From positions 1-44,633 of IMG/VR virus record IMGVR_UViG_3300025133_000219: a stretch of DNA of 44,633 nucleotides, one strand, 5' to 3'. A program made the position numbers and the translations under genes. Of this stretch, positions 1 to 40,606 are shown piece by piece. The notes below the pieces were generated by a model. It was given only the letters and a program-made list of their open reading frames with translations. It did not search any database and was not told the origin of the DNA. Source of the DNA: a virus. How positions within the stretch are numbered: the stretch's first letter is position 1; each line of letters opens with the position of its first letter.

Positions 1-3000
1 AAGTCTTCCAGCCGTGGTAGCTGCGGTGGCAGCAGTCTTCTCTCGGAGACCTCCTACGGAGATCTGATCACTGACCGAGATAGTTCCGTCCTTCAGGGCC
101 TTCAGAGCATCCTTCTTGTTCGCAAAACGCTTGCCCGTACGCTTACCTATCTGACTCAGCTGGTAGACCCCGAGCTGCGACTCCTGCCGAGGAATGTGCA
201 TCAGGGCACCACTAGCGGGATTCAACAGATGCTTCGAGGGCATCATGCCCTTAGCCTCTAACACCGCCTCCTGAGTCATGGGAACGAAGATGCCCATCTT
301 GTCGCCGTCGAAATCTGCGTTGTACCCCGCAGTGACTAGCGGGTGGATCTGAATTGCTTTGCCCGAGACGATCTTAGGCTTGAACGCCATGACTCCGTGT
401 CGATGTAGCACGGGATCTCGTTTCATGATCACGGGACGGTTTGCCGCCACCTGCTCCAACGCCTTGTCGGCGATGGCCTTATTCTCTTTGATGGCTTTCT
501 GTGCCTTCAGGGGGGTGTAGCCGAAGCCCTTGACGAGCTCTCGCACTACGAAGGGCTTCATCATCTCCATAGCGGCCTTGCGAGGGATGCCCACCTCATC
601 CAGCCCCATGGACTGCTCGGGGATGATGGTGGATCGCATCGACAAGTCCTGTCGGCGACCGATGATCTTGCTCTGGAAGTAGCCGTACTTGGGCTGCGTA
701 CCCGAGATCGCCTCCATCACTCCTCGACGATGCCGACCCTGCAGGTCAGACCCCGTCAGGGTCAGGGCCCTGAGCCCGTCGTACAGACTCGCCCGCATCG
801 GCTGCCTCATGGACTCGGGGATCCCCTTGTCTGCCTTGAGCTCACGAAGCTTCTTATCCGACAAGGCGATGTCCTTGTACAGGTGGTTGAGATCCTCGGT
901 GTTGAGGTCCCCGTTGTCCATCACGGTGACGGGACGCATGGACGGGGGGAGTACCGGGACTGCCTTAGTGGTGTACGCCTCCGTGGGAGACATCTTCGCG
1001 TCGACTAGGGCCTGGAGGTACCTGACTCGCTTACGAGCCTTGCTCAACTGGTCCTTCCGTGCCGTCTTCAGATCCTTCTTCGCCTGAGCGAGCTCGGTCT
1101 TGGGATCGATCTTCGCCAAAGCATTGACGACGGCAGTGGGGCCCGACGCGTCGCCGATGGTCTTGGTCCCTGCGATCACTCCGTTCAACTGCCCCTGCTT
1201 CAACCCAAGGATGCCGCTGATTGCCTTCTCGAAGGTCGGGTTCGGCAGCGGTTCGGACAGCTCCAGATGTGACCACTTCTTGCCATCAGTACCACCAGTC
1301 AGCTTGTTGTCGAACAAGCCTCCCTTTTCGGGGCGGAGGTCCTTGCCTCGCAGCATCCTACCGCCGTTGGGGAGAGCTCCTGCACTTAGCTCCCGCACCT
1401 GCTTGTCGGTTAGGGGTCGCAAGGTCTGCGTAGACCCGTTCTTGTCTACGTTGACTCCCATCACCTTGAGGTAGCTGGTGAACTTGTCGTAGGTGAAGGG
1501 AATCTGCGGCGGAGGGATGGTCGCCCCCTCCTGCAGACGGGTCCACAGCTCGTCGTTTCGATCCGACTTCAGCGTGGCCATCTCTCTGATGTTGTGTTTG
1601 GCCCCGTGCGAGAGCATCGCGTTCAGGCCCAACGCTCCGATGGACTGCGCCCCTGTACTTGACTTGGGGATCCCGTCCATGGTGTAGGGGTTGCCCGCTC
1701 CACCACCTCGAGGACTCATGCTCTTGCTGACCTTGTGCTTGAGCTTGAAGATGTACTGTTCGCCGTTCAGCACCTTGCCGAGTACGCGGCCTGTACCTGG
1801 GTCTCGAACATCCTCCTGGTCAGACAGGCCGTGAGCCTTCAAATCCCTCATCACCTTCCTGGTGTAATCCGGCTCGCTCGGGTCGAAGTTGTCTACGACG
1901 TACGGCTTGCCTGTCTTCCGAGCGATCTTCCCGGCTGCGGTCTCTAGCACCTGCCCCAAATTGATGCGGCTGGGGATACCTGCCGGGTTCATGGCGACCT
2001 CTAGAGGCTTCCCGTCCGGAAGCACGACCATCTCGTGATCAGGAATGACTGTAGAGATGATCCCCTTGTTGCCGTGACGTCCCACCAGCTTGTCGCCGAC
2101 CTGAGCAGGCTCCTCGGTCTTTACGTGGACCTCTACACCTCGAGAGGTCCGAGCTACCCGAGAGACTGTGCCCTGGTAGCCCTTGTCCCAGACCACCGCC
2201 CGGTTTCGGTGATCCTTGACCATGGACTTCTTCAGGTTCCGAAGCTTCTTCTGCTCGGTGGAGATGTCCTCCCTCTGCAGCTTCGCTACCAGGACGTCCC
2301 CCTCCTCGACTCGAGTACCTGGCTTGATGATCCCCTCATCATCGAGCTTGTCCCACTGCTCCTTGTTCAGGAAGTCCGAAGAGACGTGGGCTCGGAACTT
2401 CTTCTTACTCAGTACCGTCTGCTTGTCGATGCCGGTCTTGGGCCGATACATGTGCTCGGACGTCAGCTTCTTTGCAGCCGTCTCGGAGATGACGATACCG
2501 TCCTCGAAGTTGTAGCCCTTGAAGGGCATGTACCCGACTCGAAGGTTCTTACCTAGCGCGAACTCCCCTCCCTTGGTGAAGTTCGTATCCGCTAGGAGCT
2601 CCCCCTTCTTCACCTTCTGCCCCACCTTGGCGGTTGTGTCCGCCTTGATGAATGCGTCGTCCTGGTTCAAGGGGAAGTCGTTGTAGATCTGAACTTCGTG
2701 AATCTTGCCCTTGGCATCCTTCACGTTGATCGAGTCTTCGTCGATGGAGACCACCGTCCCGTGAACGGGAGACGCGTGAGAGTTGAACGCGCCCATCACC
2801 TTCTCGAAGGTGACGTTCTTGTTCCCTGTCGCCGACTGCACCAAGGGAGCCTCTCGATGCTTCAGTCCTACAGCCTGTTCCTGCATCCGCGAAGCCGTCA
2901 TGGCTCGGTTGCTCTGGTTGTTCTGGAGGAACGGGATCAGGTTCGTCGGCAGGGAGTACATCCCCTTGGTGGAGACCATCACGTGGGTGACGTCTCCGTA

Positions 3001-4431
3001 GGGGCGGGCCTCGATCTCGTTACTCTTGGAGGCTACGGTCACCTCCTTGCCCTTTGGAAGAGGCCTCCCACCCTTCCAGTCCACCTGGTCCGGGAACGCC
3101 ACCACAGCTGCGTCGAACTGGGCAGGGGACAGCTCTTCCAGCTTCCCGGTCTTCCGGTTGTACGCCTTGGTGAAGAGCTCCTTGCCTTTTTTCCTGGCGC
3201 CTAGAGGCAGCTGCAGCGTGATGCCTGTCTTCTCCCCTTCCGGAGTGGGGATGGGATCGATGAACCCCAGGTGACTGGGATTGATCCGGACAGCGTCCTC
3301 TGGCACGGACTGAATGTCCCCAATACCGCCAGGGCCCATGATGGTTGTGCGCATGTGCCCCGAGACGAAGTCCAGCGGGTTCGTCTGCGTGGGCATGGGG
3401 GCTAGAGCTGTAGAGAAGAAGGACTTGAGCGGCTTGTTGAACACTGCGGGGCTCACTACGTCCCGAACACTGTCCTTGACGTCCACCGTCTGCTTGAGTC
3501 TGCGGGTGATGTCCCACGTACCCCTCTTGAGTCGATCTGCCAGGTGATCTTCAGCCGACAGCAGGTCCTTGAAGATCAAAGACTCTCGATCGTCCGCCTT
3601 CACCTTGCCTCTGGCCAGATCCAGCAGCTTGCCAGACGAGCGGAGCATGGCCTCCCCGTTGACCTCCGCGTACTCCTTGCCCAACGTGACCTTCGTGCTG
3701 TCTGGGCGGAGCTTGGCGGTGCCGAAGATCTCTCCTGCTCGTAGCCGGGCTTCTGGCAATGTCTTCGCGGTCTTGCCAGACGTCTTGGCCAGCAGCTTGT
3801 TCAAGCTCTGCAGCTGCTTGGCCTCTCCTCCGTACTGCTTCACGGAGGAGTCGTAGATGTCCTTGCCCCACAACTTCCTGATCTCGGCGTCAGATCTGCC
3901 CAGTGCTTTGAGTACTGGGTACAGCCCGATGTCTCGGGTGCCATCTACCTCGACCTGAAACTTCCGAGTCTTCGGATCGAAGTACGTGTTGAAGCGGGAA
4001 GCCTTCGAGCCTTCCCACCTCTCGAGGTTCCAGTGAGCGTTGAGCTCCCCGGCCTCGTTCTCTCGGTGGTACGCACCTGCCTTGAGACGAAACTGGTTCT
4101 CTATCTGCCTCTCACGGCCGTCCACGATGTACGAGTAGCGCCTCGTGATCTTGGGAATGCGGGCTACTGTGATGACCTGTCGGTCGATCTCCTTGCCCGT
4201 CTTCTTGTCCTTGAGTGAGATCTCTGCCTTGAGCGGGACATCCCAGCTCCGGCCCTTCAACTTCGAGTCCTGCTGCGACTTGATGTCGTCGAGGCTCTTC
4301 GAGTCGTCTACCCAGACCTTGTGCATCTCCAAAGTGCGGTGACTGCCCTCGAAGGGGAAGTGCGAGGAGACGGACTCCACTGCTCGAGTCTTCAAGGATT
4401 CGAACGTGCTCTCGGGATCCAGCTGCGCCAT
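1..4431 (-). CDS. Fused beta-beta' subunit DNA-directed RNA polymerase (partial, 3' end off window)
   Basis: This gene would make a phage-encoded multisubunit-type RNA polymerase catalytic chain. The frame is open from ATG at 4431 to base 1, 1,477 codons without a stop. Residues 1 to about 1000 match beta: GPGG near 366, a PxPTPEGEKTG segment, FEDGIVISE at 642-650 and GDKLVGRHGNKGII around 785. The same frame then continues into beta': RPEKGGLFDNKLTGG near 1038, a GRRQDLSMRS segment, RDPVLHRHGVMAF, and the Mg-binding NADFDGDKM at 1371-1379, whose three Asp chelate catalytic Mg2+. The order is beta then beta', as in bacterial rpoBC. The beta half is shorter than the roughly 1,340 residues of E. 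coli, and the beta' N-terminal zinc domain is missing. Trigger loop and bridge helix must lie off the window. It diverges from 4532. A weak AGG precedes the ATG. The family call is firm; whether alpha, omega or sigma partners exist cannot be seen. Confidence 0.96.
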   Translation of the reverse strand, partial: MAQLDPESTFESLKTRAVESVSSHFPFEGSHRTLEMHKVWVDDSKSLDDIKSQQDSKLKGRSWDVPLKAEISLKDKKTGKEIDRQVITVARIPKITRRYSYIVDGRERQIENQFRLKAGAYHRENEAGELNAHWNLERWEGSKASRFNTYFDPKTRKFQVEVDGTRDIGLYPVLKALGRSDAEIRKLWGKDIYDSSVKQYGGEAKQLQSLNKLLAKTSGKTAKTLPEARLRAGEIFGTAKLRPDSTKVTLGKEYAEVNGEAMLRSSGKLLDLARGKVKADDRESLIFKDLLSAEDHLADRLKRGTWDITRRLKQTVDVKDSVRDVVSPAVFNKPLKSFFSTALAPMPTQTNPLDFVSGHMRTTIMGPGGIGDIQSVPEDAVRINPSHLGFIDPIPTPEGEKTGITLQLPLGARKKGKELFTKAYNRKTGKLEELSPAQFDAAVVAFPDQVDWKGGRPLPKGKEVTVASKSNEIEARPYGDVTHVMVSTKGMYSLPTNLIPFLQNNQSNRAMTASRMQEQAVGLKHREAPLVQSATGNKNVTFEKVMGAFNSHASPVHGTVVSIDEDSINVKDAKGKIHEVQIYNDFPLNQDDAFIKADTTAKVGQKVKKGELLADTNFTKGGEFALGKNLRVGYMPFKGYNFEDGIVISETAAKKLTSEHMYRPKTGIDKQTVLSKKKFRAHVSSDFLNKEQWDKLDDEGIIKPGTRVEEGDVLVAKLQREDISTEQKKLRNLKKSMVKDHRNRAVVWDKGYQGTVSRVARTSRGVEVHVKTEEPAQVGDKLVGRHGNKGIISTVIPDHEMVVLPDGKPLEVAMNPAGIPSRINLGQVLETAAGKIARKTGKPYVVDNFDPSEPDYTRKVMRDLKAHGLSDQEDVRDPGTGRVLGKVLNGEQYIFKLKHKVSKSMSPRGGGAGNPYTMDGIPKSSTGAQSIGALGLNAMLSHGAKHNIREMATLKSDRNDELWTRLQEGATIPPPQIPFTYDKFTSYLKVMGVNVDKNGSTQTLRPLTDKQVRELSAGALPNGGRMLRGKDLRPEKGGLFDNKLTGGTDGKKWSHLELSEPLPNPTFEKAISGILGLKQGQLNGVIAGTKTIGDASGPTAVVNALAKIDPKTELAQAKKDLKTARKDQLSKARKRVRYLQALVDAKMSPTEAYTTKAVPVLPPSMRPVTVMDNGDLNTEDLNHLYKDIALSDKKLRELKADKGIPESMRQPMRASLYDGLRALTLTGSDLQGRHRRGVMEAISGTQPKYGYFQSKIIGRRQDLSMRSTIIPEQSMGLDEVGIPRKAAMEMMKPFVVRELVKGFGYTPLKAQKAIKENKAIADKALEQVAANRPVIMKRDPVLHRHGVMAFKPKIVSGKAIQIHPLVTAGYNADFDGDKMGIFVPMTQEAVLEAKGMMPSKHLLNPASGALMHIPRQESQLGVYQLSQIGKRTGKRFANKKDALKALKDGTISVSDQISVGGLREKTAATAATTAGRL

Positions 4432-4531
4432 GGGGGTAATCCTAGCTCTGTCTCACCGCTAATGGGCTGTCGTGGCCCGGTGACAATGTGCCTGCACTTG
4501 GAGAGATAAGGGAAGTAGAAAGGAAGTAACC
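4432..4531. promoter_or_regulatory. Divergent intergenic region, probable promoters
   Basis: This 100-base gap separates the minus-strand RNA polymerase gene from a plus-strand cluster of small genes, so at least one promoter in each direction is expected. On the plus strand a GATAAG-like hexamer near 4505 lies downstream of GTGACA near 4481, but the spacing of about 19 is long for a sigma70 promoter. AAGGAAG at 4520-4526 is the Shine-Dalgarno of the next gene. No convincing phage-specific promoter motif could be confirmed. Confidence 0.4.
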
Positions 4532-4651
4532 ATGCCTGATGACAAGACCGAGACCTCCGCTTCCCAGTTCAGCTCCGCCATCGAGGAGGCCATCTACGGC
4601 TCCTCGACGGAGGAGGAGAAGAAGGAGCAGAAGGAAGAAGAGAAGGAGTAA
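4532..4651 (+). CDS. Small acidic Glu/Lys-tailed protein, unknown
   Basis: A 39-residue protein starting MPDDKTETSASQFSS and ending in a highly charged Glu/Lys tail. The start is supported by AAGGAAG five bases before ATG. It is the first gene of a tightly packed group of four, and the next ribosome binding site (AGAAGGAG) lies within its own last codons, which suggests translational coupling. No domain is recognised. Its tail composition suggests a disordered or coiled segment. It is short enough to be doubtful alone, but the strong ribosome binding site and the coupled neighbour support it. Confidence 0.6.
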   Translation: MPDDKTETSASQFSSAIEEAIYGSSTEEEKKEQKEEEKE

Positions 4652-4653
4652 TC

Positions 4654-4764
4654 ATGCCGCTGATTTTCGGAGCCGGCGTCGCCCTCGGTCTCGTGCTCTA
4701 TGCACGAGACCAGTGCTGGTTCGGCATGGCTCGAACCGCGAAGCACTTGAAGAAGGATGAGTGA
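4654..4764 (+). CDS. Small single-span membrane protein candidate
   Basis: A 36-residue protein. Residues 2-16 are hydrophobic (PLIFGAGVALGLVLY), followed by a positively charged C-terminus with several Lys and Arg. This fits a single membrane segment with the basic end in the cytoplasm. AGAAGGAG lies five bases upstream of ATG, overlapping the end of the preceding gene. Its stop overlaps the start of the next gene. Small inner-membrane proteins in phage early regions can act in lysis timing or host interference, but nothing here shows which, so function is unknown. Confidence 0.6.
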   Translation: MPLIFGAGVALGLVLYARDQCWFGMARTAKHLKKDE

Positions 4765-5116
4765 CGATCCCCGTCTAGCGTATTGCCCGCTCCTCGTCCT
4801 GGCTTCCGAGCCGGGGCGTAGGAGCGGGCGGTGCCCGGATCCCCGAGATTGCTCTTCTTGCATTTACTTCCAGGAGGTCCTTGGGGATCTGGGGGTACTG
4901 GAGGAGGTCCTCTGGATCTGTCCTCGTTGCTTACCTACCGGTCGGCAAGCTAGCGGCTTCACGCTCCTGGGGCACTACTCAGAAGAAGAGTGCGCTGGGT
5001 GCGAGGGGATCAACAGTCTGTGCCAGGCCTGCGTAGAACCAGAGGCATTGTCCCAGAAACAGTGGAGGCACCTCGTAACCCACACAGCCTCGGAGATGTT
5101 CGAGAAGGAGGACTAG
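4757..5116 (+). CDS. Cysteine-rich zinc-binding-type protein, unknown
   Basis: A 119-residue protein with ten cysteines, mostly in pairs: C10, C26, C32/C35, C55/C58 (CPRC), C79/C82 (CAGC) and C89/C92 (CQAC). The spacing suggests two or more zinc knuckles. The start ATG overlaps the end of the preceding gene by eight bases, with AAGAAGG directly before it. The stop TAG shares its last base with the GTG of the next gene, so the cluster is translationally coupled. No enzyme family is recognised. A nucleic-acid or protein-binding role is inference from the cysteine pattern only. Confidence 0.75.
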   Translation: MSDDPRLAYCPLLVLASEPGRRSGRCPDPRDCSSCIYFQEVLGDLGVLEEVLWICPRCLPTGRQASGFTLLGHYSEEECAGCEGINSLCQACVEPEALSQKQWRHLVTHTASEMFEKED

Positions 5117-5457
5117 TGTACTGCGTCTACTGCCAGGAGGAGTTCACATGGGGAGAGGATGCGGTCGAAATCCGCCCAGGAAGGGTAGAGGTGAGCTCCC
5201 GAAGCCTGGGCCCTGCCTTCATCGCCGACGAGCCTGACGCAGAGCTCATCCATGTGGGCTGTATCGCCCACCACTTTCTACCCGATGAGGAAGGGGAGCT
5301 TCGAGAAGCTCTACGAGACGAGAAGATCGACGGAGTGGGGGAGCTGTTCCAGGAGTACCTGGACAAGGACGTCATCCCCCGTATCGAGGAGCCGGAAGCT
5401 CCGACACAGCCGGCACCTAGAGGGGGGCGGAATCGCTTTCGCACACGTCGGAGGTAA
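5116..5457 (+). CDS. Small CxxC...HxxC zinc-finger-like protein
   Basis: A 113-residue protein. The N-terminus carries C3-x2-C6 and, after about 40 residues, H46-x2-C49, a plausible single zinc site. The middle is acidic and helical (EELREALRDEKIDGVGELFQEY region) and the C-terminus is basic (RTRRR). I chose GTG at 5116 rather than an upstream ATG because GAAGGAGG lies five bases before it and it overlaps the preceding stop by one base. It is the last gene before a strong hairpin at 5462-5486. No named family; a small DNA- or protein-binding regulator is possible. Confidence 0.75.
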   Translation: MYCVYCQEEFTWGEDAVEIRPGRVEVSSRSLGPAFIADEPDAELIHVGCIAHHFLPDEEGELREALRDEKIDGVGELFQEYLDKDVIPRIEEPEAPTQPAPRGGRNRFRTRRR

Positions 5458-5460
5458 CTG

Positions 5461-5487
5461 GTCGGCACACGGGCTCCGTGTGCCGAT
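5461..5487. terminator. Bidirectional hairpin terminator between convergent genes
   Basis: A perfect 11-base-pair stem (TCGGCACACGG paired with CCGTGTGCCGA) closes a three-base GCT loop at 5462-5486. It lies four bases after the stop of the plus-strand gene at 5457 and before the minus-strand portal gene ends at 5560. There is no clean T-tract, only a pyrimidine-rich stretch to the right, so termination efficiency is uncertain. The rest of the 5458-5559 gap holds nothing else I can support. Confidence 0.65.
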
Positions 5488-5559
5488 CTACCTTCCCCTT
5501 CTGTTCTTATCTATCCCGTCCAGCATCTCCTGAAAGGAGTCAGCATTGCTCCTGTGGTA

Positions 5560-7551
5560 TCACACGATCGCCGAGCCTATGTCTCTCCTGGGCGGCTTCG
5601 CGCTCGGGAGAGGCGACTGGTTCGGGTCCAAGGGGTCTCTCTTGCCTCCCTTGGACTGCATGATCTGAAGCACCAGGTTCAGGAAGTTGGGCTGCTCCAT
5701 CTTCATCTTCTGCATCCACGCGTAGGCCGTCTTGGGGTCCTGCTTCAAGAGGTCGTCGAGCATCTTCGACACTCTCTTAGCTACGTACAACACGTTCATG
5801 CTCTGACCACCCGCTCCGCTAGCCTGGTTGATCGGAGACTGGGCCTCCTGCGGGACGCCCTCTGCTGGCGCCTGTCCTGCGTTCTCTGGGTTGATGCTGC
5901 CTCCCGAAGACGGAAGTGCTCCGGCTGCCTCAGGCGGCGGCTGGCGAGCCTCGGCGCCCGGTGTAGCCCCGCCCAGCATGTCCTGACTTGCGGCCTGCAT
6001 GTACCGCTGTGAAACCTGCTGAGCCTCTGCCTGAGCAATGGCGGACGCAACCTGCATCCGTCGCTGATCGTCGGAAGTCCTCCTGCCCTCGCCACGCTTG
6101 AGCCTCTGCTCTGCTTCGTAGTTCTCTCCCAGCTCTCGGAGCAGGGTGTGATCAGAGACCTTGCCACCCTGGTTCATCTGGAAGTAGATCATCGTCCGCT
6201 GCAGGTCGTCGGCCATCTTGAAGCGCTTGAACTTCTTATCGACCTTCGGCCAGCCCATGAAGGCGCCGATGCTGTCGAACACCCAGTTCGTCAGCCCCTG
6301 CGTCTCCGTGCGGTAGTTGATGAACTCGTTCTCGAGGTTCCGCATCGACACGTTGGTGCCGCTGTACGACATCCCGCCGAAGATGAACTCCTGTGGGGCA
6401 TGCATGCCTGCGATGATCTGCTCTGCCCAAACCCGATGCTCCTGGTGGAGCACCATGGCTCGGCCCTGCCCACCAATGACCTGGTGCCCCACGGGCATGG
6501 GGAGGATGGGCATGTAGTTGGGATCACGCCTCCACCGCTCGATCTCCTCTTCCATGGTGTTCTTCCACCCCTGGAGAGGCACCGTGGTGTAGGGATCAGA
6601 GGTGCCGGACCCGGCCTGCGGGAAGAGGACTCTCAGGGGCACGATATGCTCCCTGGCGATCATCTCCTGGCCCTTCTTGAGCACCTGCAGGTAGTACGAG
6701 TCCTTGAGCACTGGGAGGATGCGAGGCATCCCCCACCCCTGGTCCTTACCCGCTAGAGTCGGACGCTTGAGGTGGAACACCTGTCCAGGCGAGAACTTGA
6801 GGGCCAGCTTCTTCTTGGCGGCCTTCAAGAAGATCGAGGGGATCCTCTCGATGACGTGCGGCTTGCCTACCAGTAGCTGCCCTCGAGTACGAGCACTCAT
6901 CTGATAGAAGTACTGGGTGTCTCCGGTCTCCTCGTTGTACTGGATGGAGATCCTCTCCGGATCCCACCGGATCAACCGGATCTGGTGAGGGGAGCGGAGA
7001 GCGATGTCCTTTTGCTTAGCCTTCCCTCGAGAGTTGCACTTCGGGCACTTGAGCACGAAGCCCATGTCCCGCCACTGGTAGAACTTCCTCAGCTGCTTGA
7101 CGGGCTCACTGTGCTTGCAGTTGCCGCAGATCAGGTACTTGACGAAGGGGTAGTGGATCGAGACGAAGGCGTTGCCGTAGCACTGGTAGTCCAGCCCCGC
7201 CTCTACAAGGAACTGGCGGTACCCCAGGATGTCATCCTTGAGGTGAGCGTACTTGTCCTCTACTGCCGCGTGCTCGCTGGTGAACACCAGGTCGGTGATC
7301 GGGTACGACGCCATCTTGTAGCAGACGGCGTTCACCAGGGGATTCGTGAGGAAGTAGTACCGGCAGTACTTGAAGAGCTTCTTCATCGTGGCGGGCAAGT
7401 ACGTATGCGCGCCGTCGAAGAAGGGGTTGGGGTAGGCCACGCCTCCCCGACCACTGGTGTTCATCCGGAGATCGCCGAAGCCCCCAGACCCCCCAGAGCC
7501 TAGACCATCGGTGATCCCTCCCGGGAAACTGCCGAAGTCGAAACCGGCCAT
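5560..7551 (-). CDS. Phage portal protein with internal zinc knuckle
   Basis: A 663-residue protein forming the dodecameric DNA gate at the capsid vertex. Recognisable features are a Gly-rich N-terminus, an aromatic core helix region (residues 55-80), a middle domain with a GKDQGWGMPRILPVL segment, a long helix rich in Ile/Met/His around REHIVPLRVL, a clip/stem region, and a Gln/Ala-rich then Pro/Gly-rich C-terminal tail. Two CxxC pairs (C142/C145 and C169/C172) form a zinc-knuckle insertion not usual in portal proteins. It lies directly downstream of 7552-8277, with start and stop abutting, in a minus-strand virion block. Terminase and major capsid genes are not in the window. The portal call rests on overall pattern recognition rather than a catalytic motif. 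Confidence 0.82.
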   Translation of the reverse strand: MAGFDFGSFPGGITDGLGSGGSGGFGDLRMNTSGRGGVAYPNPFFDGAHTYLPATMKKLFKYCRYYFLTNPLVNAVCYKMASYPITDLVFTSEHAAVEDKYAHLKDDILGYRQFLVEAGLDYQCYGNAFVSIHYPFVKYLICGNCKHSEPVKQLRKFYQWRDMGFVLKCPKCNSRGKAKQKDIALRSPHQIRLIRWDPERISIQYNEETGDTQYFYQMSARTRGQLLVGKPHVIERIPSIFLKAAKKKLALKFSPGQVFHLKRPTLAGKDQGWGMPRILPVLKDSYYLQVLKKGQEMIAREHIVPLRVLFPQAGSGTSDPYTTVPLQGWKNTMEEEIERWRRDPNYMPILPMPVGHQVIGGQGRAMVLHQEHRVWAEQIIAGMHAPQEFIFGGMSYSGTNVSMRNLENEFINYRTETQGLTNWVFDSIGAFMGWPKVDKKFKRFKMADDLQRTMIYFQMNQGGKVSDHTLLRELGENYEAEQRLKRGEGRRTSDDQRRMQVASAIAQAEAQQVSQRYMQAASQDMLGGATPGAEARQPPPEAAGALPSSGGSINPENAGQAPAEGVPQEAQSPINQASGAGGQSMNVLYVAKRVSKMLDDLLKQDPKTAYAWMQKMKMEQPNFLNLVLQIMQSKGGKRDPLDPNQSPLPSAKPPRRDIGSAIV

Positions 7552-8277
7552 CTAGTGCTCGTCTCGGTAGTAGGCCTGCCTGAACGCCATCTTGGCCGTA
7601 GCGGCAGCCGGACGAGGACGCCCTGTGATCAGGCGGCCCGCCCCATCAACTACCTTGCCGACTCCGCCGCCAACTGCGCCTAGTGCTGCTCCAGATACCA
7701 TGGACGAGATCATGCCTCCCCGCATACCTCCGATGAATCCCGCACCGCTGCCAATGGCCTTGCCCCACCGCTCCGCTCTACCAGCGTTGGGCTGTGTGGG
7801 ATCGGGCCCCTTCTTAGCGGCACCGTGAAGACCAAGTCCCGTGAAGCCTGCGGTCAGGGCCTTGGTGCCCGCGCCTGCCCCCACTTCCACGGGTACGCCG
7901 CCCACCATCTTGCCGTTCACCATCTTGCCGCCGACCATCTTGTACTGACCCGCCGACTGCCAGCCCTTTCGGAGCTCTCTGCCTCCGGTACGCGGATCCA
8001 GGGTCCTGCCGGCGCTGCGGAGACCTTGACCAACTCGATGAAGCGCTCCACCGGGAGTCCACCATCTGCCACCGTGCTGCAAGAGCTCCTTGCCGGGACC
8101 TTCAGCAGCTCGCAGGAACTGACCTGCCTCGTCAGTACCCTTTGCTCCGACCGTCCACCCCTTGTCCAGCATCCGGCGGGTCGTGCCCGTAGCTCTATTG
8201 ATCGCGGACCACAGCCGAGCCTCCTTCTGGAGCTCGAATGCTTCTGCCGAGAACGCTTCGTAGACGAGAGGGTTCAC
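7552..8277 (-). CDS. Gly/Ala-rich virion-type protein, possible ejection protein
   Basis: A 241-residue protein of unknown family. The N-terminal 60 residues are helical and mixed (FELQKEARLW). The centre contains three near-copies of a KMVGG/KMVNG unit, seen in DNA as repeated ccatcttgccg around 7900-7945. The last third is a long glycine-zipper segment (GAGFIGGMRGG and SGAALGAVGGGVG), which could insert in membranes. The start is GTG at 8277, overlapping the upstream stop in a GTGA arrangement. Directly upstream of the portal gene and similar in style to 9156-11975, it may be an internal head or ejected protein. That role is inference. Confidence 0.7.
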   Translation of the reverse strand: MNPLVYEAFSAEAFELQKEARLWSAINRATGTTRRMLDKGWTVGAKGTDEAGQFLRAAEGPGKELLQHGGRWWTPGGALHRVGQGLRSAGRTLDPRTGGRELRKGWQSAGQYKMVGGKMVNGKMVGGVPVEVGAGAGTKALTAGFTGLGLHGAAKKGPDPTQPNAGRAERWGKAIGSGAGFIGGMRGGMISSMVSGAALGAVGGGVGKVVDGAGRLITGRPRPAAATAKMAFRQAYYRDEH

Positions 8278-9152
8278 AACTTCTTCCCTAGCAGACCTTC
8301 GAGAGCGGTCACCTGCTGGTGAAGCAGTGCCTGACGGTGCTCCATATGCCCTTCAGCAACCAGGAGCTTGGCACATACTACATCCTCTGGAACATCGTCT
8401 TGCAGCATGTAGTCCCCTTCGGGATCCTGCTTGATCCTCTTCCACGGAGTCTCCACAGAGCGAGGATCGTTCTTCAGCTCGTACTTCAGGTTCCTCCCGA
8501 CCGAGTCAGGCACCCCCTTGGCCGGCTTCATGTTCATGGCGTTGCCGTCAGAGTCTGGAGAGAATCTGCCTACGCAGACATCGCATCTCCCGTCTCGCAG
8601 GTCTACCTCATCCTGATTGCCGCAGTCCCTGCACTCGTAGTGCGGTCGAGCAGCATGACCTTGGGCGAAGTCTAAAGGCTTCGGCAAGAACCAAACACCT
8701 TGCTCCAAGCACGCAGCAGCTACGAACCGAGAGATCTCCTCAGAGAACTCCTCCTCCCGGATCGTAGACACGATGTCCAGCCCCGCCATCAGCTGAGCCA
8801 CCGAGGGCTTCTGCAGCGTGTCGAACACTGGCACGTTGTTGTTCAACGCCTGCATGATCGGGCAGAAGATCTGCCACTCTTCCCAGAAGCCGTTGCTCAG
8901 CAGGAGGGTACGGATCGCCTGGATCTTGTTTCTGTTCAGCCCGCTGACCGTCACCTTGGTAGGCCGACCTCTAGCGCTGAACCGCCGACTGAAGTCATCC
9001 TCGATCTCGTACCACAGCACGTCCGCTTCCCACTCGAGCCACTCCACGTCGTACTCCTTGAACAGGAGCGTGGCTAGCACGACAGGGTGTGCGTCGTGGT
9101 GTCCGAAGATCAGGCTGGGAGAGAACCCGATCTTTTCGGCGGCTTCGGCCAT
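8274..9152 (-). CDS. Virion-block protein with zinc ribbon, unknown
   Basis: A 292-residue protein with a helical, Trp-rich N-terminal two thirds (EWLEWEADVLWYEIEDDF) and a zinc ribbon near the C-terminal third: C174/C177 and C190/C193. The Phe/Trp-rich helical domain is cytoplasmic in character with no signal peptide. It sits between the giant Ala/Gly-rich gene and the smaller Gly-rich gene, overlapping the latter by four bases, and is therefore probably co-transcribed with the portal. It could be a head-assembly chaperone, a scaffold-related protein or a minor virion component; the sequence does not decide between these. Confidence 0.75.
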   Translation of the reverse strand: MAEAAEKIGFSPSLIFGHHDAHPVVLATLLFKEYDVEWLEWEADVLWYEIEDDFSRRFSARGRPTKVTVSGLNRNKIQAIRTLLLSNGFWEEWQIFCPIMQALNNNVPVFDTLQKPSVAQLMAGLDIVSTIREEEFSEEISRFVAAACLEQGVWFLPKPLDFAQGHAARPHYECRDCGNQDEVDLRDGRCDVCVGRFSPDSDGNAMNMKPAKGVPDSVGRNLKYELKNDPRSVETPWKRIKQDPEGDYMLQDDVPEDVVCAKLLVAEGHMEHRQALLHQQVTALEGLLGKKL

Positions 9153-9155
9153 GGG

Positions 9156-11975
9156 TTATGCCGAGATTCGAGAGATGACGTGCTTCACATCCGAGGGCAA
9201 GGACTCGAACACTGCTACCGGAGCCTTGGCGAACTCGTAGAAGCCGTCGTCTCCCAGGGCAGTGGTCAGCGGAATCCGCTTCTCCTTGCTGGCTGCTACC
9301 AGCTGATCTCCGGTCACCGTGTCGGGACCTTCTGACCACCGGAAGTCTTCGGAGGCAGACTTCGTGAGGATCGCAGCGTAGGGATCTACTACGTGAGTGT
9401 CCCACTTCTGGCTGATGCCGTAGTGCTCATCGACCTGGGTGAGCGCATCCGCGAGGTAGTCCGGGTCGGCGGTCGGGATCTCCTCGGCCAGCTTGATCAG
9501 CACCTCACGACCGTAGTCGTCCACGTACTTGGCTCGAGCGTTCAGGTGCAGCACAGCTTCCGTAGAGACAGCGTCACCGGCGTACTTCTCGAGGTTCTCG
9601 GAGGTCGGGTAGACCCCGTGAGCCAGGGCGGCCTTGACCAGGTTGGTCGCGTACGTTCGTCGATCAGAGGGATGGAGCCTCTGCCAGTGCTCGTCGAAGA
9701 AAGCCTCTGCCTGCTTGATCTGCTCCGGGTTCTCTACCGGGTAGTCTCCTCGTAGAAGGGTAGACGGGGCCGCGGTCTTCGGCCTGTTGAAGAGCTTCTG
9801 CTGCAACATGCCGCTACCTGCCCCTAGAGCGGTGGTGCCTGCCGCCACAGCGCCGAGTCGACCGCCCTTCATCTTGCCGAGCAGACCGGTGTGCTTGGCG
9901 ATTCCCGCCGCGCCCAGTCCTCCAGCCGCACCTGCTGCACCAGCTTCGCCAGGAGTCCATCCACGATAGCTGAGCAAGCTCCGCTTTCGACCTTGTGGAG
10001 CAGTGGTACTGGTGTTGGTGCCTGTCAGAGAGAAACCAGCGGCAGTCTTCTGGTTCTCTCGAGCCTGCTCAGCCTTGCGCTGTCGGTGCATCACGTAGGC
10101 ACCTCCTGCCGCCAGGGCTCCGGCGGCCGCCAGGGCTCCGCCAGTCGCTCGTGGGGAGGAAGATCTCGGGATCGGTCGAGACTTCGGGGAGTCCAACCGG
10201 GCCTTGATCTTCGGGGTCTTGAAGAAGAGCTTGGATCTCTTCCTGGGAGCAGGAGGGGAAGAGGGGGCGCGTCTATCCGCTCTCGCGACTCTATCTATGT
10301 GCCTCGAGTCCTTCGCTCCCCCTGGCCGCAAGTAGTCTGCCGTGGCCGACGGGTCCATCAGCCCCCGAAACTTGAGCTCCTGGCGAAGTCTACGACCCTT
10401 GGACTTGTCGATGTCCTTGTTGATGAGCCTGGCACCCTCGCGGACATGACGGTTCTCGGAATTTCTCGAGATGTCGAAGAAGGACTTCTCCGCATTCTCC
10501 AGTCCCTTGCGCCTCTCTCGAGCCTTGTCGGCTGCCCTGGCCTTGAGCTCCTTGCTCAAGGCTTCCTTCGTCTGGCCGGCTTCAAGCCGCTTGATCCTCT
10601 GAACCATGGCAGCTCTCTGAGAGTGATCGGTGCCGAGCTGGTAGCCCTGCCGACGCCCACTCCAGTAGCCCTTTTGGCTACCCGAGCCGAATCCTGCGGA
10701 GAAGCCTTCAGCCTTCCCCTTCTTCTTGCCCCGCTTGTGGCCCAGCACAGCTCCGCCCATAGCGGTAGCGGCGGCGATGCCAGCGGTGGTCTTGGCACCT
10801 GCCTGCTTCCTCATATCCTTGTTGAGCGACAAGAGGGCCTGAGCCTTGTTGACTCCAGGCTGAAGACTGACGTGGCCTACCTGCTTGAACGTACTGGGGT
10901 TCTGGAGAGCCTGCACCGCCTGAGACTTCGACAAGGCCCTACCACCTAGCTCGAAGAACTCATTCTTGTTGTGGTACTCCTTGACCAGGGATCTCGCACC
11001 TGCCGCAGACTCAGGCCTCTTGTTACCTTTGAGGGCAGTGGACCAGTTGTATCCCTCCATAGAAGCCGACGCCCGCTTTCTACGTCCCATCATGTAGCCA
11101 GTACCTGCGACCCCTGCCTGCTTCGGCCGACCGAGCATCCTCTTGGCGCCGTAGGCACCCGCACCTAGGGCAGCAGCACCTCCAGCAGTAGCTGCACCGG
11201 CAGCGGCAAGGTTCGTTCCTGGGGCGTACTTCGCGTTCCTGGAGACATTGCCAACTGCCTTGGCCCAGTTTTGAGGGGCGGTACGGGTGACGTCCCTCTT
11301 CGCCAGCAAGTTCTTACTCCTCGCCACACCCCTGCCAGCCTCCTGTAGACCCGCTCCGCTGGCTCTAGCGAACTGCCCGGCTGCTCCGCCCATGGCCTTG
11401 GCACCAGCTGCCATCTGACCGCCCCAACCTGCTCCCCCTTGGCCCGCTGCCGTAGCGGCTTGCCGCCCTGCCTGATAGGAGCCCTTGGCGGCCCGTCCCA
11501 GCATCTTGAAGCCTTCTCCGGCGGCTCGGAAGAACGCCTTCTTCTCGGCGCTAAGATCGGTGATGTCCACCACCGGAGTATCTCCGAAGTAGACGAGCTC
11601 TCCCTCACCGTGGAGAGACTCGTTCAGGGCAGACGCCACCTTCTCGACGAGCTCCATCGGGGGAGGCGTACTCGTGCCCTCGAGGACGTGCATCAGATTC
11701 GTGCCCGCCAGGACAGCCGCCGTCTTCGGCATGCGGTCCCAGGAGCCGAGCAGACACATCGTGTTGAGCCAGGCGGTCCCAGGACTCATACAGGCGAACT
11801 TCCTGAACCTCTCACTGCCATCGACCATGATGAGGGCGAAGTCCTCGTCGGGGTAGTTGTCCAGCTCGTCTTCCGACGGGAAGTGGCTGCTCCCGACCTC
11901 ATCGGGAACGCCGATGCCGGCCTCCTTGACGAGGCCAGGTCCGAAGTCGTGAAGATCCAGGTACGTACGGTGCAT
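9156..11975 (-). CDS. Large Ala/Gly-rich virion protein with repeated hydrophobic segments
   Basis: A 939-residue protein of no recognised family. The N-terminal 140 residues are globular and acidic. The long middle alternates Ala/Gly-rich hydrophobic stretches (GAAALGAGAYGAK, GGALAAAGALAAGGAYVMH, GGLGAAGIAKHTGLLGK, GAVAAGTTALGAG) with very basic linkers. Residues about 440-480 have many Gly at helical spacing. The C-terminal 180 residues are globular again. A short K-x-A motif (KTAA, KQAG, KEAG) recurs more than ten times. CAAGGAGCTC precedes the ATG. It begins the minus-strand portal operon. Membrane-active, highly basic composition suits a DNA-associated internal protein ejected at infection, but this is inference. 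Confidence 0.75.
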   Translation of the reverse strand: MHRTYLDLHDFGPGLVKEAGIGVPDEVGSSHFPSEDELDNYPDEDFALIMVDGSERFRKFACMSPGTAWLNTMCLLGSWDRMPKTAAVLAGTNLMHVLEGTSTPPPMELVEKVASALNESLHGEGELVYFGDTPVVDITDLSAEKKAFFRAAGEGFKMLGRAAKGSYQAGRQAATAAGQGGAGWGGQMAAGAKAMGGAAGQFARASGAGLQEAGRGVARSKNLLAKRDVTRTAPQNWAKAVGNVSRNAKYAPGTNLAAAGAATAGGAAALGAGAYGAKRMLGRPKQAGVAGTGYMMGRRKRASASMEGYNWSTALKGNKRPESAAGARSLVKEYHNKNEFFELGGRALSKSQAVQALQNPSTFKQVGHVSLQPGVNKAQALLSLNKDMRKQAGAKTTAGIAAATAMGGAVLGHKRGKKKGKAEGFSAGFGSGSQKGYWSGRRQGYQLGTDHSQRAAMVQRIKRLEAGQTKEALSKELKARAADKARERRKGLENAEKSFFDISRNSENRHVREGARLINKDIDKSKGRRLRQELKFRGLMDPSATADYLRPGGAKDSRHIDRVARADRRAPSSPPAPRKRSKLFFKTPKIKARLDSPKSRPIPRSSSPRATGGALAAAGALAAGGAYVMHRQRKAEQARENQKTAAGFSLTGTNTSTTAPQGRKRSLLSYRGWTPGEAGAAGAAGGLGAAGIAKHTGLLGKMKGGRLGAVAAGTTALGAGSGMLQQKLFNRPKTAAPSTLLRGDYPVENPEQIKQAEAFFDEHWQRLHPSDRRTYATNLVKAALAHGVYPTSENLEKYAGDAVSTEAVLHLNARAKYVDDYGREVLIKLAEEIPTADPDYLADALTQVDEHYGISQKWDTHVVDPYAAILTKSASEDFRWSEGPDTVTGDQLVAASKEKRIPLTTALGDDGFYEFAKAPVAVFESLPSDVKHVISRISA

Positions 11976-12086
11976 TTGAGCTCCTTGGGACGGCTCGATG
12001 ATGCCGCTAGGGCGGCAAGAACGTCAATGCAAGAACCCGTAGCAGGTCGGCATAAGACAGGTAATGGAGATTACTTAGGAGGTTCC
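11976..12086. promoter_or_regulatory. Divergent promoter region with inverted repeat
   Basis: This 111-base gap separates the minus-strand portal operon from the plus-strand replication operon. It contains a perfect inverted repeat TGCCGC-TAGG-GCGGCA at 12002-12017 that could be an operator or hairpin. On the minus strand TTGACG (about 12030) resembles a -35 box, without a clear -10. Each flanking gene has a strong Shine-Dalgarno (TTAGGAGG rightward, CAAGGAGC leftward). Promoters are expected from the layout but are not proven. Confidence 0.45.
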
Positions 12087-12470
12087 ATGTCCGACATTCC
12101 CCGACTACGTAGAGTACCAACCTGTTTCGGAGATGCCGAGGCTTACGACCCTGATCACAAGGAGTGTAAAGCCTGCGACGTCAGAGTGCGCTGCAAAGTG
12201 CGAGTCCGAAACGCATCAAAGTTGAAGAAAGGCAAATCGTCGTCATCCTCGAACTCCGTGGCCATTAGATCACGGAACAAGGTGTCCAAGCACGATGATG
12301 ACGATGCGGCTGAGTTCCGCACAGCAAAGACCCGTACCAAGGGCTGGTGGGGCGCACTGAGCCACAACGCGTTCATCAGGATGTCTTCTACATTCCTGAG
12401 AGAAGCCGCGTTCGGAGTAGAGCAGATCCCTCTCGAACCTTACTCGGACGAGGAGCTAGAAGATGACTGA
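12087..12470 (+). CDS. Cys-cluster protein opening the replication operon
   Basis: A 127-residue protein. The N-terminus has a four-cysteine motif, C13-x13-C27-x2-C30-x5-C36, within TCFGDAEAYDPDHKECKAC, a metal-binding-type arrangement. The middle is basic with a Ser tract followed by an Asp tract, probably disordered, and the C-terminus is acidic (EELEDD). I start it at ATG 12087 because TTAGGAGG lies just upstream; the open frame extends further left, but that part overlaps the oppositely oriented gene and its promoter. It overlaps the next gene by eight bases. Function is unknown; its position suggests an early regulatory or replication-accessory role. Confidence 0.7.
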   Translation: MSDIPRLRRVPTCFGDAEAYDPDHKECKACDVRVRCKVRVRNASKLKKGKSSSSSNSVAIRSRNKVSKHDDDDAAEFRTAKTRTKGWWGALSHNAFIRMSSTFLREAAFGVEQIPLEPYSDEELEDD

Positions 12471-12909
12471 TGTCGGAGCCATGATCCGCACGCACCGCAA
12501 GCGGATGTTCAAATACCGCAGCGATGCAGCCAAGCTGATCATGATCGACAGGGGCGGAGGAATCCGTACCCACATGAGTAGAGAAGGTCTCCGCAAGCTG
12601 GAGGAGAACCTCAACCTTCCCAGCGCAGAAGTCCTCAACGAGATCATCTCCAAGTGGGGGCTGGACTTGGCAGAGGCGGAGAATCTGAGGAGAGCAGTTC
12701 ACGTACAACACCAGCGTCGGGCTGGATACGAGGAACCGACCACAATCAACCCGTTGGGGAACGACATCGAATCTCTGATCAACACGACCATAGGAGCCAT
12801 CGTGCGAGACGTATCAGTAGTGCTCGAGAGTAGGGGGGTGGACGTCAAGGAGATCTCGCAAGACCTGTTCGAGATCGTAGAAGTCCACATCAAGTCCAGC
12901 TTCAGATGA
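12463..12909 (+). CDS. Helix-turn-helix (XRE-like) protein candidate
   Basis: A 148-residue protein. Residues 5-75 look like an XRE-type helix-turn-helix unit: a basic first helix (IRTHRKRMFKYRSDAAKL), a turn, MSREGLRKLEENLNLPS as recognition and following helix, then EVLNEIISKWGLDLAEAENL. The C-terminal half is a separate helical domain (SLINTTIGAIVRDVSVVLE) that may dimerise. It lies second in the operon, next to a divergent promoter region with an inverted repeat, so it may regulate that region. The HTH reading is moderately secure; an alternative is a small structural helical protein. Confidence 0.65.
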   Translation: MTDVGAMIRTHRKRMFKYRSDAAKLIMIDRGGGIRTHMSREGLRKLEENLNLPSAEVLNEIISKWGLDLAEAENLRRAVHVQHQRRAGYEEPTTINPLGNDIESLINTTIGAIVRDVSVVLESRGVDVKEISQDLFEIVEVHIKSSFR

Positions 12910-14638: not shown

Positions 14639-15381
14639 AGTCCCTCGAGGTTCTGTACGAGACCTACGTCGAGGGTGAGTGCGATCTGTGTCCCAGACTA
14701 GTTGAGAGTCGGAGCTCCATCGTGTTCGGCGAGGGAGACACCGACGCTGACCTGGTGATCGTGGGAGAGGGTCCTGGAAGGATTGAGGATGAGATCTGTC
14801 GTACCTTTGCGGGTTCGGCAGGTCTCCTGCTCGACACCTTCCTGACCTACTTCGCAAGAGCCGATGAAGAATGGCTTCACGGCATGGGACGCAGGATGAC
14901 CTCGGGCTACAAGCCCTCCGATGCAGAGTCAGACGAGATCAGGGACGCACTAGTGGCGTCCGAGAAGATCTTCTACCTCAATGCCGTCATGTGCCGGCCT
15001 CCCGAGAACGTGGATCCCACGGCAGCGGAGCTCCGAAACTGCGAAGAGCGGCTTCATCAGACGATCTACAACATCGATCCGCTTCTAGTCCTGGCTGTGG
15101 GCAAGGTCGCCTCCAAGGCGGTCCTTGGAAAGCAGCTTTCCATCACCAAGGACAGGGGACAGCTCTTCGACGTTGAAATCATGGGAGTGACCGGAGGCAT
15201 CAGATACCCCCTACTGGTTACGCTCCATCCCGCCTACGTGGCGAGGGTGGGGAATTACACCAGTCCAACCAGTCCGGGCCAGAAGTTCGCTCAGGACATC
15301 GAGAAGGCGTTCGGCCTCCTGGACGAAGCCCGGCTTCTAACCAGGGATGAGCCCCTTCCCAAGAGGAGAAAATGGAAATGA
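14635..15381 (+). CDS. Uracil-DNA glycosylase, family 4-like with Fe-S cysteines
   Basis: A 248-residue enzyme predicted to excise uracil from DNA. Four cysteines (C16, C19, C120, C136) match the [4Fe-4S] ligands of family 4/5 glycosylases. Motif 1 appears as GEGPGRIEDEICRTFAG (44-60), the RPPENVDP segment follows C120, and motif 2 is TLHPA (197-201). An insertion of about 35 residues around 75-110 is longer than in common family members. The start is GTG at 14635, overlapping the upstream stop. Among replication genes it would remove dUMP arising by deamination or misincorporation. Family assignment is strong; activity is untested. Confidence 0.88.
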   Translation: MKSLEVLYETYVEGECDLCPRLVESRSSIVFGEGDTDADLVIVGEGPGRIEDEICRTFAGSAGLLLDTFLTYFARADEEWLHGMGRRMTSGYKPSDAESDEIRDALVASEKIFYLNAVMCRPPENVDPTAAELRNCEERLHQTIYNIDPLLVLAVGKVASKAVLGKQLSITKDRGQLFDVEIMGVTGGIRYPLLVTLHPAYVARVGNYTSPTSPGQKFAQDIEKAFGLLDEARLLTRDEPLPKRRKWK

Positions 15382-29135: not shown

Positions 29136-29346
29136 CTATTTCCGCGATCTTGTTCAGATGCTGTGCGTAGCTAGAGCTACGCCGGCGTACCTGCACACCC
29201 CGCTTACGAGCTCGGGCGGGCATGGCCGCCACGATGTCTGCTGGAGGAGAGCCCTTGTGCTTCGGAGCGGGGGCTTGTTCGGGCAGCACATGCTTCATGG
29301 CCTGAGCCGCAGCCTTAGCCAGCTTGATGGGGTCCGACACGATCAC
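29122..29346 (-). CDS. Small basic hypothetical protein after giant virion gene
   Basis: A 74-residue basic protein, Ala/Lys/Arg-rich, with AKAAAQAMKHVLPEQ as a likely helix and RARKRGVQVRRRSSSY as a strongly basic patch. I start it at GTG 29346, which overlaps the TGA of the giant upstream gene in the GTGA pattern common in this genome; TTG at 29370 is an alternative. It ends in LNKIAEIAKKR. It is the last gene of the right-hand minus-strand virion block. A small DNA-binding or virion-associated peptide is possible, but nothing specific is shown. Confidence 0.6.
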   Translation of the reverse strand: MIVSDPIKLAKAAAQAMKHVLPEQAPAPKHKGSPPADIVAAMPARARKRGVQVRRRSSSYAQHLNKIAEIAKKR

Positions 29347-32300
29347 GGGTTGATCCGGTTGTACTGGCAACCGAGCGTGGCTCCCAGGAACTTGAACCGA
29401 GTAATTTGCTTAACCGCTGTGAACACCGTCGCCGACGCAGCGTTCGCCGAGATATCGGACGCAAGCCCGATCCGCATACCCGAGGTCCCGTCGGGGTTAT
29501 CGACCAGGTAATGATTCACGTCCTGGTTGACTCCACCGCCCTTACCCCAGCAACGAAGCACTAGGGCGTAAGAGAACTGCCGCCTGTCCACATGAGCAGG
29601 GTTGAGAACAGTGACCTGCGGATCCTCTACCTCGGTGTAGAGCTCCTCATGCAGATCAAGCTTCAGCAGATACTGTCGATCTGTTCGAACGTCCTGGTTG
29701 ATCTCATTCCCATCGCATTTTTGGTCTATGGACTTTGTAGTGGGAGCCACTCCCTCCATCCAAGGGATGTCGACCTCCTTGGAGAGGATCACTTCGGAGA
29801 AGCCGTGGGCAATGCTGCTCACTACTGCCGCCCCCACCTCTCGTTCCTCGTCAAAGGCGTTCTCCGTCGGGGAGACCCAGTACCTGTGGAGCTCTAGGAG
29901 GAAGCCGATATCACTTGCTGACGCCTGCGTCATCCCTCCCGGAGTGCAGGAGGTTCCGTAGAAAATTCCTCCGTCCGGAGTCCAGGAACCTTCCACATCC
30001 TTCCCCCCAGGACGGTAACCGAATCCGACTGTCAACGAGGACAGGATGGATCCGTGAGGGGGATCCAATCGGATGATGTGGCCCACCATCGGGGGGAAGC
30101 AACCCAGCCCGTCATCCAACGGGCTCTGCGGCATGAATCTGTCATGGACAAAGTTGAAGCACGCGGAGTGCTTGCCCCTTCTCCAGTACAGGTAAGGATC
30201 TGCTAGATCTAGGAAGTTCTCCCCCGTCAGCTTGACCTCACCGTCTAAATGCAGTACACGCCTTCCCGCCAGGAAGGCCATGTTCGGGGGGCTAATCTTC
30301 CCCTCATCTCCCGTGACAGTGGCGCCGTAGGTCCTGGATCTATCATCCCATGGGACCTCATCACCGTAGCCGCCCTCTGAGTAACACTCTGCACTCTCGG
30401 GGCCGTAGGACTTGTAGTCCATGGCCGTGCCCGCGATGGAGAACCCTGCAGCCAACACCGGCCCCTCGTTCACCAGCACTCCGTGGTGAACGTCTACGGC
30501 TTCGGTATCCACTACTAGGCTGTAGATGAAGAGCTTCTCTTCTCCGGTTCCGGCCTCGTGCTCTACATCACGCATCCAGGTCTGCCCCAGGCCGAGGCGC
30601 ACCATCACGGGGGTGCCGTCTGAGAGAGCGTCCGCCGCCGCCTCTCTCAGATCGTCAGGACTGTCGAAGAAGAGCTCCGTAAACGTAGTGACGTCAGGCA
30701 GCAGCTGGAACGTCTGTGCAGGGGCCGCCTCGTTCCAGGGAGCGAAGTTCTGTCCAACAAGGGCGACTGAGATCGTCTTCTCGTCGTCGAAGTTCTGCGT
30801 CCCTGACCACCGCAACCCGATCTTCACTCGAATCCTGAAATGCCGCTGTCGGACCCACCTAGCTCCGCCAGTATATGCGTGCAGCGTCTCAGGGTCTGCC
30901 TCCGCCGTGCCGTTAGACCAGTTGAGGAGGATTGCCCCTAGAGGTTCGGAGACGTCGTCGAAAAGGTTGTCTGGGTCCTTGAAATCTGTGCTGAGCCTGA
31001 ATGTCCCACCGACGCCATTGTCCCGGAACACCCACTCCGAGCTGTTAAAATTCAGGTCTCCAAGATCTCCAAGATCTAGGGGCTCGTAGAGGGGGTGCCA
31101 GGCCTGGTTAGCGATCGGCGGACGAGAGGCGTTCTGGAGCGCCCCGAGGAGAGCTTCCTCTTTCCTCGACATGCCTGCGGCGTAGTCATTCAGGAACAGG
31201 GTAGGGGGTGAAAGCGGCCCGTTCGGACCCAGCCCCATCGGGTAGCCCGCCATATCGCGCGCCTTGGAGTCCTTGTCCAGGAACCTGCCGAACGCCCCTA
31301 GCTGCTTGAACGCGATGTCCGGGTCTTCCCCCGGTGTGGCGGTCATGTAGGTGCCGACAGTGAACCATGACTCGATATCGAGGTTCGCCCAGTGCCACCG
31401 GTTACCTAGAACCGTAATCCTCTGGTTAGCAGAAGCGTCCGCAGTCAGGGCCGTAGCTCCTACGTAATCAGGGTGATACACCTCGAACAGGTGGTACCTG
31501 TAGCCTAGCCCAGTGATCGACTCGTCCAGAGACACGTTGACGATCACGTAGTCCCCCGCCTTCGCGGCATTGGCTCCGGCTAGATCATAGAGTCTTGCGA
31601 TCTGCCCGACGAATGCTGACGGATCCTCGACCGGCGTACCTGGATGCGTGTAGAAACGCACGAACCCGCTGGTTCTAGCTGATCTGGACGAGGCAGCGTC
31701 CGGAGCCTCGATAGTGCAGAGATGTCCTCCCGTACCTCGATACGGGAGAACCCGCCCTGGCTGACCCAATCGGGCCGAGATCCGCTCTTCCAGAACAGCG
31801 GGGTTCCCTTCTCGAGCCACATCGTGGTTGGTCTCCCAGTACCGCATCCACGGCTCAGACATGGGGGAGTTCGAGAACCTGGACGTGCTAGACAGCTCCG
31901 AGTACGTGCCTCCGTACATCTCGTGCAGGTTTTCTCCGTCCGGCCAGGAGATCCGGGGATCCCACTGGTAGACGCCGCCCATGATTTCGAGGGCACCGCC
32001 CTGCATCATAGACCACCTGTCCTCTCGAACGATGACGCCTGTAGCCTTGCCATCCACGAATGTGATGTCGTCTGGATTCGGAAGGTCGGCGTGGGCTCCA
32101 CCGGTCTGCCAGCCCACCGCTACGAACGCGGAGTCGGTGCCCACCTGCGCCAGGTATAGCGCGGTGCCCATCATGGAAGGACTGGCCTTAGTGCCGTCCA
32201 TGGAGTACGTGTCTGCGATCAGAGCGCCGGCCCAGCCGCCCCTCTTAACCGTATCCGCGTCCTCAGAATCTCCGTAGTGCCGAGCAAGGAATCCTCTGGC

Positions 32301-40327: not shown

Positions 40328-40606
40328 ATGCTGGTTGAAATGACTGAAGAGGAGTTGTTGGCCGCCCTTGAGGGAGAGGAGTGCATCCTAGACCAGGTGG
40401 CTCAGCCCGGACTAGACGCTGTGAAGTCGGCAACCTGCCCGGAGTGCGGGGCTCGCCCCCTCCCCATGGTTGATCCGCACAACCCTCTGCATGCATTCTT
40501 GCCGACATTCAACTACGTCGCCAACTGCCCGGACTGCGGGTGCCAGTTCAGCCCACAGAGTGGAGTGATACGGAAAGTAGGAGGGTTCAGCCCGATCATC
40601 ACCTGA
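40328..40606 (+). CDS. Plus-strand zinc-knuckle gene between virion genes (moron-like)
   Basis: A 92-residue protein on the strand opposite to both flanking virion genes. The acidic N-terminus (TEEELLAALEGEE) is followed by two CPxCG knuckles, CPECG near 37-41 and CPDCGC near 67-72, about 27 residues apart, forming one zinc site. An ATG at 40340 is an alternative start. Its 3' end overlaps the convergent gene by eight bases. Inserted opposite-strand single genes in virion operons are typical of morons, which often alter the host. The two well-formed knuckles argue for a real gene; function is unknown. Confidence 0.75.
   Translation: MLVEMTEEELLAALEGEECILDQVAQPGLDAVKSATCPECGARPLPMVDPHNPLHAFLPTFNYVANCPDCGCQFSPQSGVIRKVGGFSPIIT

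Follow-up and report, generated by a model that had tools for sequence, protein, structure and literature searches.

A tailed phage encodes the beta and beta' subunits of a bacterial-type RNA polymerase in one gene, as a single polypeptide of 2,067 amino acids (aa). The window analyzed here, which comprises all 44,633 bases of an IMG/VR record, carries the first part of this gene at its left end. The fusion, the intact catalytic residues, the fold of the two halves and the existence of a phage family with this enzyme are established here. We consider it likely that the chain constitutes the whole catalytic core of a DNA-dependent RNA polymerase, with a predicted polymerase activity and a presumed sigma partner. 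If this is true, no natural enzyme of full bacterial architecture would be simpler: it would need a single gene and no assembly pathway. A one-chain enzyme would also provide a direct test of the roles of alpha, omega, and the beta' zinc ribbon, and experiments are already possible with cultured two-chain relatives.

An earlier note on this DNA had described an unbroken minus-strand frame of 1,477 codons, in which beta motifs are followed by beta' motifs, and had read it as a single-chain polymerase of a phage. Translation of window positions 1 to 4431 on the minus strand indeed gave a single open reading frame of this length, which starts with ATG, contains no stop codon and is open on its 3' side at the contig end. 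The motifs FEDGIVISE, GRHGNKGII, and NADFDGDKM were all present. The frame was matched by the Pfam families Rpb2_6 (E = 7e-58) and Rpb1_2 (E = 9e-29), and also by Rpb2_3 and Rpb1_1. These matches and the open frame lie well past chance expectation.

The complete gene was found in two further IMG/VR contigs, 3300008050_000022 (105.9 kb), whose positions 22685-67317 align to the whole window without gaps at 99.955% identity, and 3300025141_000043 (96.8 kb), a close relative. In the complete gene, the Pfam domains follow the cellular order Rpb2_3, Rpb2_6, Rpb1_1, Rpb1_2, Rpb1_3, Rpb1_4, Rpb1_5, with Rpb1_1 and Rpb1_4 each slightly below the Pfam cut-off. Extension to the left, as the earlier note had suggested, placed the trigger loop, the second zinc site and a normal stop codon on the same chain, which contains the bridge helix as well. 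Neither a frame break between the halves nor a loss of the beta' C-terminus was seen in the two contigs. As the window is a metagenomic contig that terminates within the gene, one could suspect an assembly artefact or a chance frame. This is virtually impossible, and already refuted: two other contigs have the same open frame, and about 100 homologues are single-chain too. The features of the window discussed below are the following:

1..4431, minus strand: fused beta-beta' RNA polymerase gene, first 1,477 of 2,067 codons, truncated by the contig end (complete at L005:10001-16204)
1447..4431, minus strand: beta (RpoB-like) part, residues 1-995, from the end of the RpoB matches and an AF2 model
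1..1434, minus strand: beta' (RpoC-like) part within the window, residues 1000-1477, from the alignment to E. coli beta' and an AF2 model
1252..1317, minus strand: site of the missing four-cysteine beta' N-terminal zinc ribbon, LFDNKLTGGTDGKKWSHLELSE, a clean gap in alignments
301..321, minus strand: NADFDGD catalytic motif, residues 1371-1377, its three Asp invariant in 20 fused relatives
2062..2097, minus strand: GDKLVGRHGNKG, with the beta active-site lysines K781 and K789, both invariant in 20 relatives
2482..2508, minus strand: FEDGIVISE motif, residues 642-650, present in the translation
3325..3420, minus strand: residues 338-369, which an alignment to E. coli RpoB matches to its rifampicin-site segment
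802..906, minus strand: beta' clamp-helix segment EDLNHLYKDI..., residues ~1176-1210, from the alignment to bacterial RpoC
5560..7551, minus strand: portal protein gene, the immediate upstream neighbor, homologous to Arash gp204 'portal protein'

Homology to bacterial RpoB ends around residues 996-1015 of the chain. In the alignment, the beta C-terminus, YLKVMGVNV (residues 987-995), and the N-terminal segment of beta' are no more than about 10 residues apart, the latter matching E. coli beta' from E. coli residue 25 onward. Judged from these alignments, the head-to-tail join is nearly seamless, with hardly any linker. Profile comparisons, which had also been proposed, gave the same picture: in addition to the Rpb2 and Rpb1 domains of Pfam, hhalign aligned E. 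coli RpoC with the beta' half at 100% probability across 1,006 columns. AF2 models were generated separately for the two halves, and their TM values concern each half, not the mutual packing: residues 1-1010 (pLDDT 81.8) matched a solved cyanobacterial RpoB with a TM of 0.76, and residues 960-2067 (pLDDT 84.8) matched solved RpoC of S. aureus with a TM of 0.84.

The enzyme departs from the bacterial form. In bacteria, beta and beta' are separate chains, whereas here they form a single frame, and the beta' zinc ribbon of bacteria is missing. The gap left by the ribbon is clean against five bacterial RpoC sequences plus E. coli RpoC, and was seen again in a separate alignment to E. coli RpoC. 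None of the aligned phage enzymes, whether fused, two-chain, or three-chain, has the ribbon, and all retain the flanking sequence. The second zinc site (CGT...C..GLC.KC) is retained in the 2,067-aa enzyme. Alignment to E. coli RpoB further indicated that the phage enzyme has neither the E. coli insertions in beta nor the long E. coli flap segment.

The catalytic elements of a bacterial-type core were found, namely the NADFDGD motif, the beta lysines, the bridge helix, and the trigger loop. The Phe-His pair of the trigger loop is, like the catalytic Asp triad and the two beta lysines, invariant among the 20 relatives. At the rifampicin site, five of the six classic contact positions, as read from the alignment, are unlike E. 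coli (Q513P, F514M, D516T, H526G, S531T), which leads us to predict that transcription by the phage enzyme is insensitive to the drug.

According to our model, the single chain would fold into the beta/beta' crab-claw. The covalent junction would lie close to the C-terminus of beta and the N-terminus of beta', and the two-barrel active site would perform catalysis. An alpha-dimer scaffold may not be needed for the fold to close, since the covalent link may replace the help that alpha and omega give in cells. The search for partner genes that the earlier note had recommended yielded a sigma-like gene, but neither alpha nor omega. Alpha (RNA_pol_L) was found above the cut-off in none of 30 family records and omega in none of 23, with positive controls in both cases; as the family contigs are mostly fragments, absent genes may lie beyond the records. 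We infer independence from alpha and omega from the absence of phage copies only, and host copies could still bind.

The sigma-like gene lies outside the window, at 77472-78263 of a 106-kb relative (G002), and encodes a protein of 263 aa. This protein matched phrog_351 (E = 3.6e-13) and Pfam Sigma70_r3 (27.1 bits, above the cut-off), and gave a weak phmmer alignment to SigA spanning regions 2-4; its region 2 was not recognized by Pfam. Sigma70_r4 was detected at E ≤ 0.1 in 20 of the 30 family records, in nine of them above the cut-off, and annotated sigma factors are also present in Arash and D69. The clamp-helix segment of beta', the docking site for sigma region 2 in bacteria, is retained in the alignment of the phage enzyme. 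The diverged phage sigma-family protein, encoded about 50 kb away, probably docks on these helices and, once docked, would steer the enzyme to phage promoters. In the 106-kb relative, a motif search of 39 upstream regions revealed only ribosome-binding-site-like words clearly above a Markov background; therefore, no phage promoter is proposed. Sigma-70-like promoters occurred near chance frequency. Window positions 4300-12600 contain no intrinsic-terminator-like sites, compared to a mean of 5.0 in shuffled sequences (sd 2.1), perhaps reflecting a different mode of termination.

Three alignment-based scans of viral contigs and two phage records yielded 229 loci in 143 distinct clusters of phage relatives. 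Plain fused chains of 2,016-2,329 aa make up 90 clusters, and fused chains with in-frame inserts another 12, one of which is truncated by a contig end. The remaining clusters contain in-frame stops (5), two-chain enzymes (11), three-chain enzymes (8), part-chains (2), and genes cut by contig ends (15). Single-chain fusion is the rule within this large phage family, with approximately 100 single-chain versus 20 split enzymes, and the cellular beta/beta' boundary is broken in none of the 143 clusters.

Several members showed peculiarities of their own. In L039, L046, L052, L063, L071, L115, L122, L127, L128, L155, and L092, the polymerase contains large inserts (about 330-530 aa) that keep the frame and have intein-like borders. 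They interrupt the most conserved motifs (PTPEG, GRHGNK, NADFDGD, and the trigger-loop FH), with two in some chains, and those examined look like inteins within active-site motifs. Polymerase frames interrupted by TGA and ended by TAA were seen at L044:7932-14003 (at least nine TGA), L064:7938-14060 (at least four), and L066:7947-15017 (at least one); judged from these codons, the three phages probably decode TGA as an amino acid. A single in-frame TAG at L167:8146-8148 could reflect recoding or an error. In a fused subclade (L056:1190-7336 and L085:7977-14264), the second beta' zinc site has lost its cysteines as well, and in L056 SSDIDGD replaces NADFDGD.

Phylogenetic trees were computed with FastTree (165 sequences) and twice with IQ-TREE (38 and 43 taxa, LG+F+G4), using the sampled bacteria as the sole outgroup. 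As far as bacterial enzymes are concerned, the phylogeny asked for in the earlier note separated the phage enzymes as one clade on a long branch (FastTree 1.0; IQ-TREE 100/100). Cellular rpoBC genes joined head to tail exist in Helicobacter and Wolbachia, and a recent capture of such a gene could explain a fusion in a phage. Such cellular fusions are part of their own bacterial lineages and work with alpha and omega, whereas the phage branch stands alone against the sampled bacteria, neither genus being included. Among the matches listed in a genome scan, the best 80 of which were all cellular enzymes, the top cellular one was 29% identical; prophage copies may lie beyond this list. With the monophyly, the long branch, and the loss of the zinc ribbon common to the family also against it, we regard a capture as very improbable.

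With basal members added, an all-fused clade (L078, L262, L265, L266, L269, L270; 100/100) was sister to the rest of the phage enzymes (99/100). The split forms, including that of Salmonella phage Arash, fell into one derived clade (100/100), with the three-chain enzymes nested among the two-chain ones. In three-chain phages, the first ~110 residues of beta' (NLEPEKGGLYDP...WTHYELAE..PNP) form the end of the 'beta' chain, and the chain after it begins inside beta'. The simplest explanation for a break at this point is that beta and beta' had been joined beforehand. Tree topology and break position are two independent lines that argue for an ancestral fusion in the phage family, a strong but not final case with a root on bacteria alone. 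The split enzymes of cultured relatives thus appear to be later breakages of a fused chain. In two-chain phages (L002, L003, L067-L076), the beta'N/beta'C break lies at residue ~1460, near the position of the cyanobacterial rpoC1/rpoC2 split, a resemblance that is probably convergent.

These breaks also bear on the idea that the product is a precursor, which a protease cuts into normal beta and beta' subunits. Such phages encode a head maturation protease (g7 of G002, phrog_18299, E = 4.6e-6). However, the junction offers hardly any linker, and since split family members break elsewhere, inside beta', a cut at the junction is not required. We therefore consider processing improbable and favor a chain that acts in one piece. 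Going further back is more tentative: the ancestor may have been a one-polypeptide enzyme with its own minimal sigma factor and no need for alpha or omega, from which multi-chain relatives arose by breaks inside beta'. For group 1 jumbo phages, the split subunits were taken to be left over from an ancestral polymerase of several pieces (PMC7824862). The family described here appears to run the opposite way, fused first and then broken at points unlike the cellular gene boundary, a warning that split subunits should not be taken as primitive without a tree.

Salmonella phage Arash (gp206 and gp216) and the Vibrio phages D69, D148, and D181 belong to the same family (~32-34% identity). Like the window enzyme, theirs joins beta to the N-terminal half of beta', lacks the zinc ribbon, and has the portal gene directly upstream; in contrast to it, the C-terminal half of beta' with the trigger loop is encoded on its own (606-609 aa). 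The nearest published concept is the multi-subunit RNAP-encoding Caudovirales (mReC; Weinheimer & Aylward 2020, PMC7481178), found in IMG/VR, whose polymerases are alignable to cellular beta and beta' and form a clade separate from cells. They were described with beta and beta' subunits, and the paper mentions a fusion for crAss-like phages only (PMC7481178). Our family probably overlaps with mReC, of which it would contribute only fused or long chains, as no others would clear the 800-residue filter for beta' used in that survey (PMC7481178). A phage clade apart from bacteria was likewise obtained here (100/100), archaea and eukaryotes being outside the tree. The mReC marker for TerL, PF03237, was matched weakly by 14 of the 30 family records and by neither G001 nor G002, whose TerL matches PF05876 and phrog_675. 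The mReC major capsid family PF07068 was found in 0 of 30 records, in a search that gave no positive-control match either.

Other phage polymerases differ more. The enzyme of crAss-like phage phi14:2, gp66, has both catalytic barrels on one polypeptide of 2,180 aa (PMC7886860) and resembles the window enzyme in its one-chain build and similar size. Kinship between the two was rejected (hhalign probability 0.1-0.2% versus either half). Polymerases of the phiKZ/AR9 type are also phage-encoded double-barrel enzymes without alpha and omega, but consist of four or more polypeptides and have no bacterial sigma homologue (PMC7598289, PMC13282480), in contrast to the one frame found here. Their match scores were 57-155 bits versus ~430-460 bits for bacterial enzymes. 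We found no description of a fused bacterial-type beta-beta' in phages in the open-access literature, supplements aside. What is new is the architecture and its polarity; the existence of bacterial-type polymerases in phages was already known.

The polymerase gene is flanked by a portal homologue on its upstream side (108 of 118 loci) and by a baseplate-like gene directly downstream (95 loci). This position would suit a virion RNA polymerase that, like those of crAss-like phages and phiKZ, is packaged and injected for the transcription of early genes, and g066 of crAss-like phi14:2, detected by mass spectrometry, likewise sits among virion genes. Gene position by itself is weak evidence, however, and a phage-encoded sigma factor fits an enzyme synthesized during infection. 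We consider packaging possible, but somewhat less likely than not. The 1.1 kb between portal and polymerase (window 4432-5559) contain only small uncertain reading frames; the Arash equivalent holds one 92-aa gene.

Leftward in the longer contig lie genes for TerL and for products that resemble a head protease and a major head protein. The plus strand of the window encodes replication proteins (SF2 helicase, uracil-DNA glycosylase, DnaB-like helicase, primase, DNA polymerase A, and RecA-like), with the uracil-DNA glycosylase superfamily protein at 14722-15381 inside the cluster. By its gene content, the source is a tailed phage that carries its own replication and transcription machinery. Three giant minus-strand genes at 29343-34940 (1,865 aa), 35587-40251 (1,554 aa), and 40599-44633 (more than 1,344 aa) matched no Pfam family above the cut-off; their products are perhaps virion or tail proteins.
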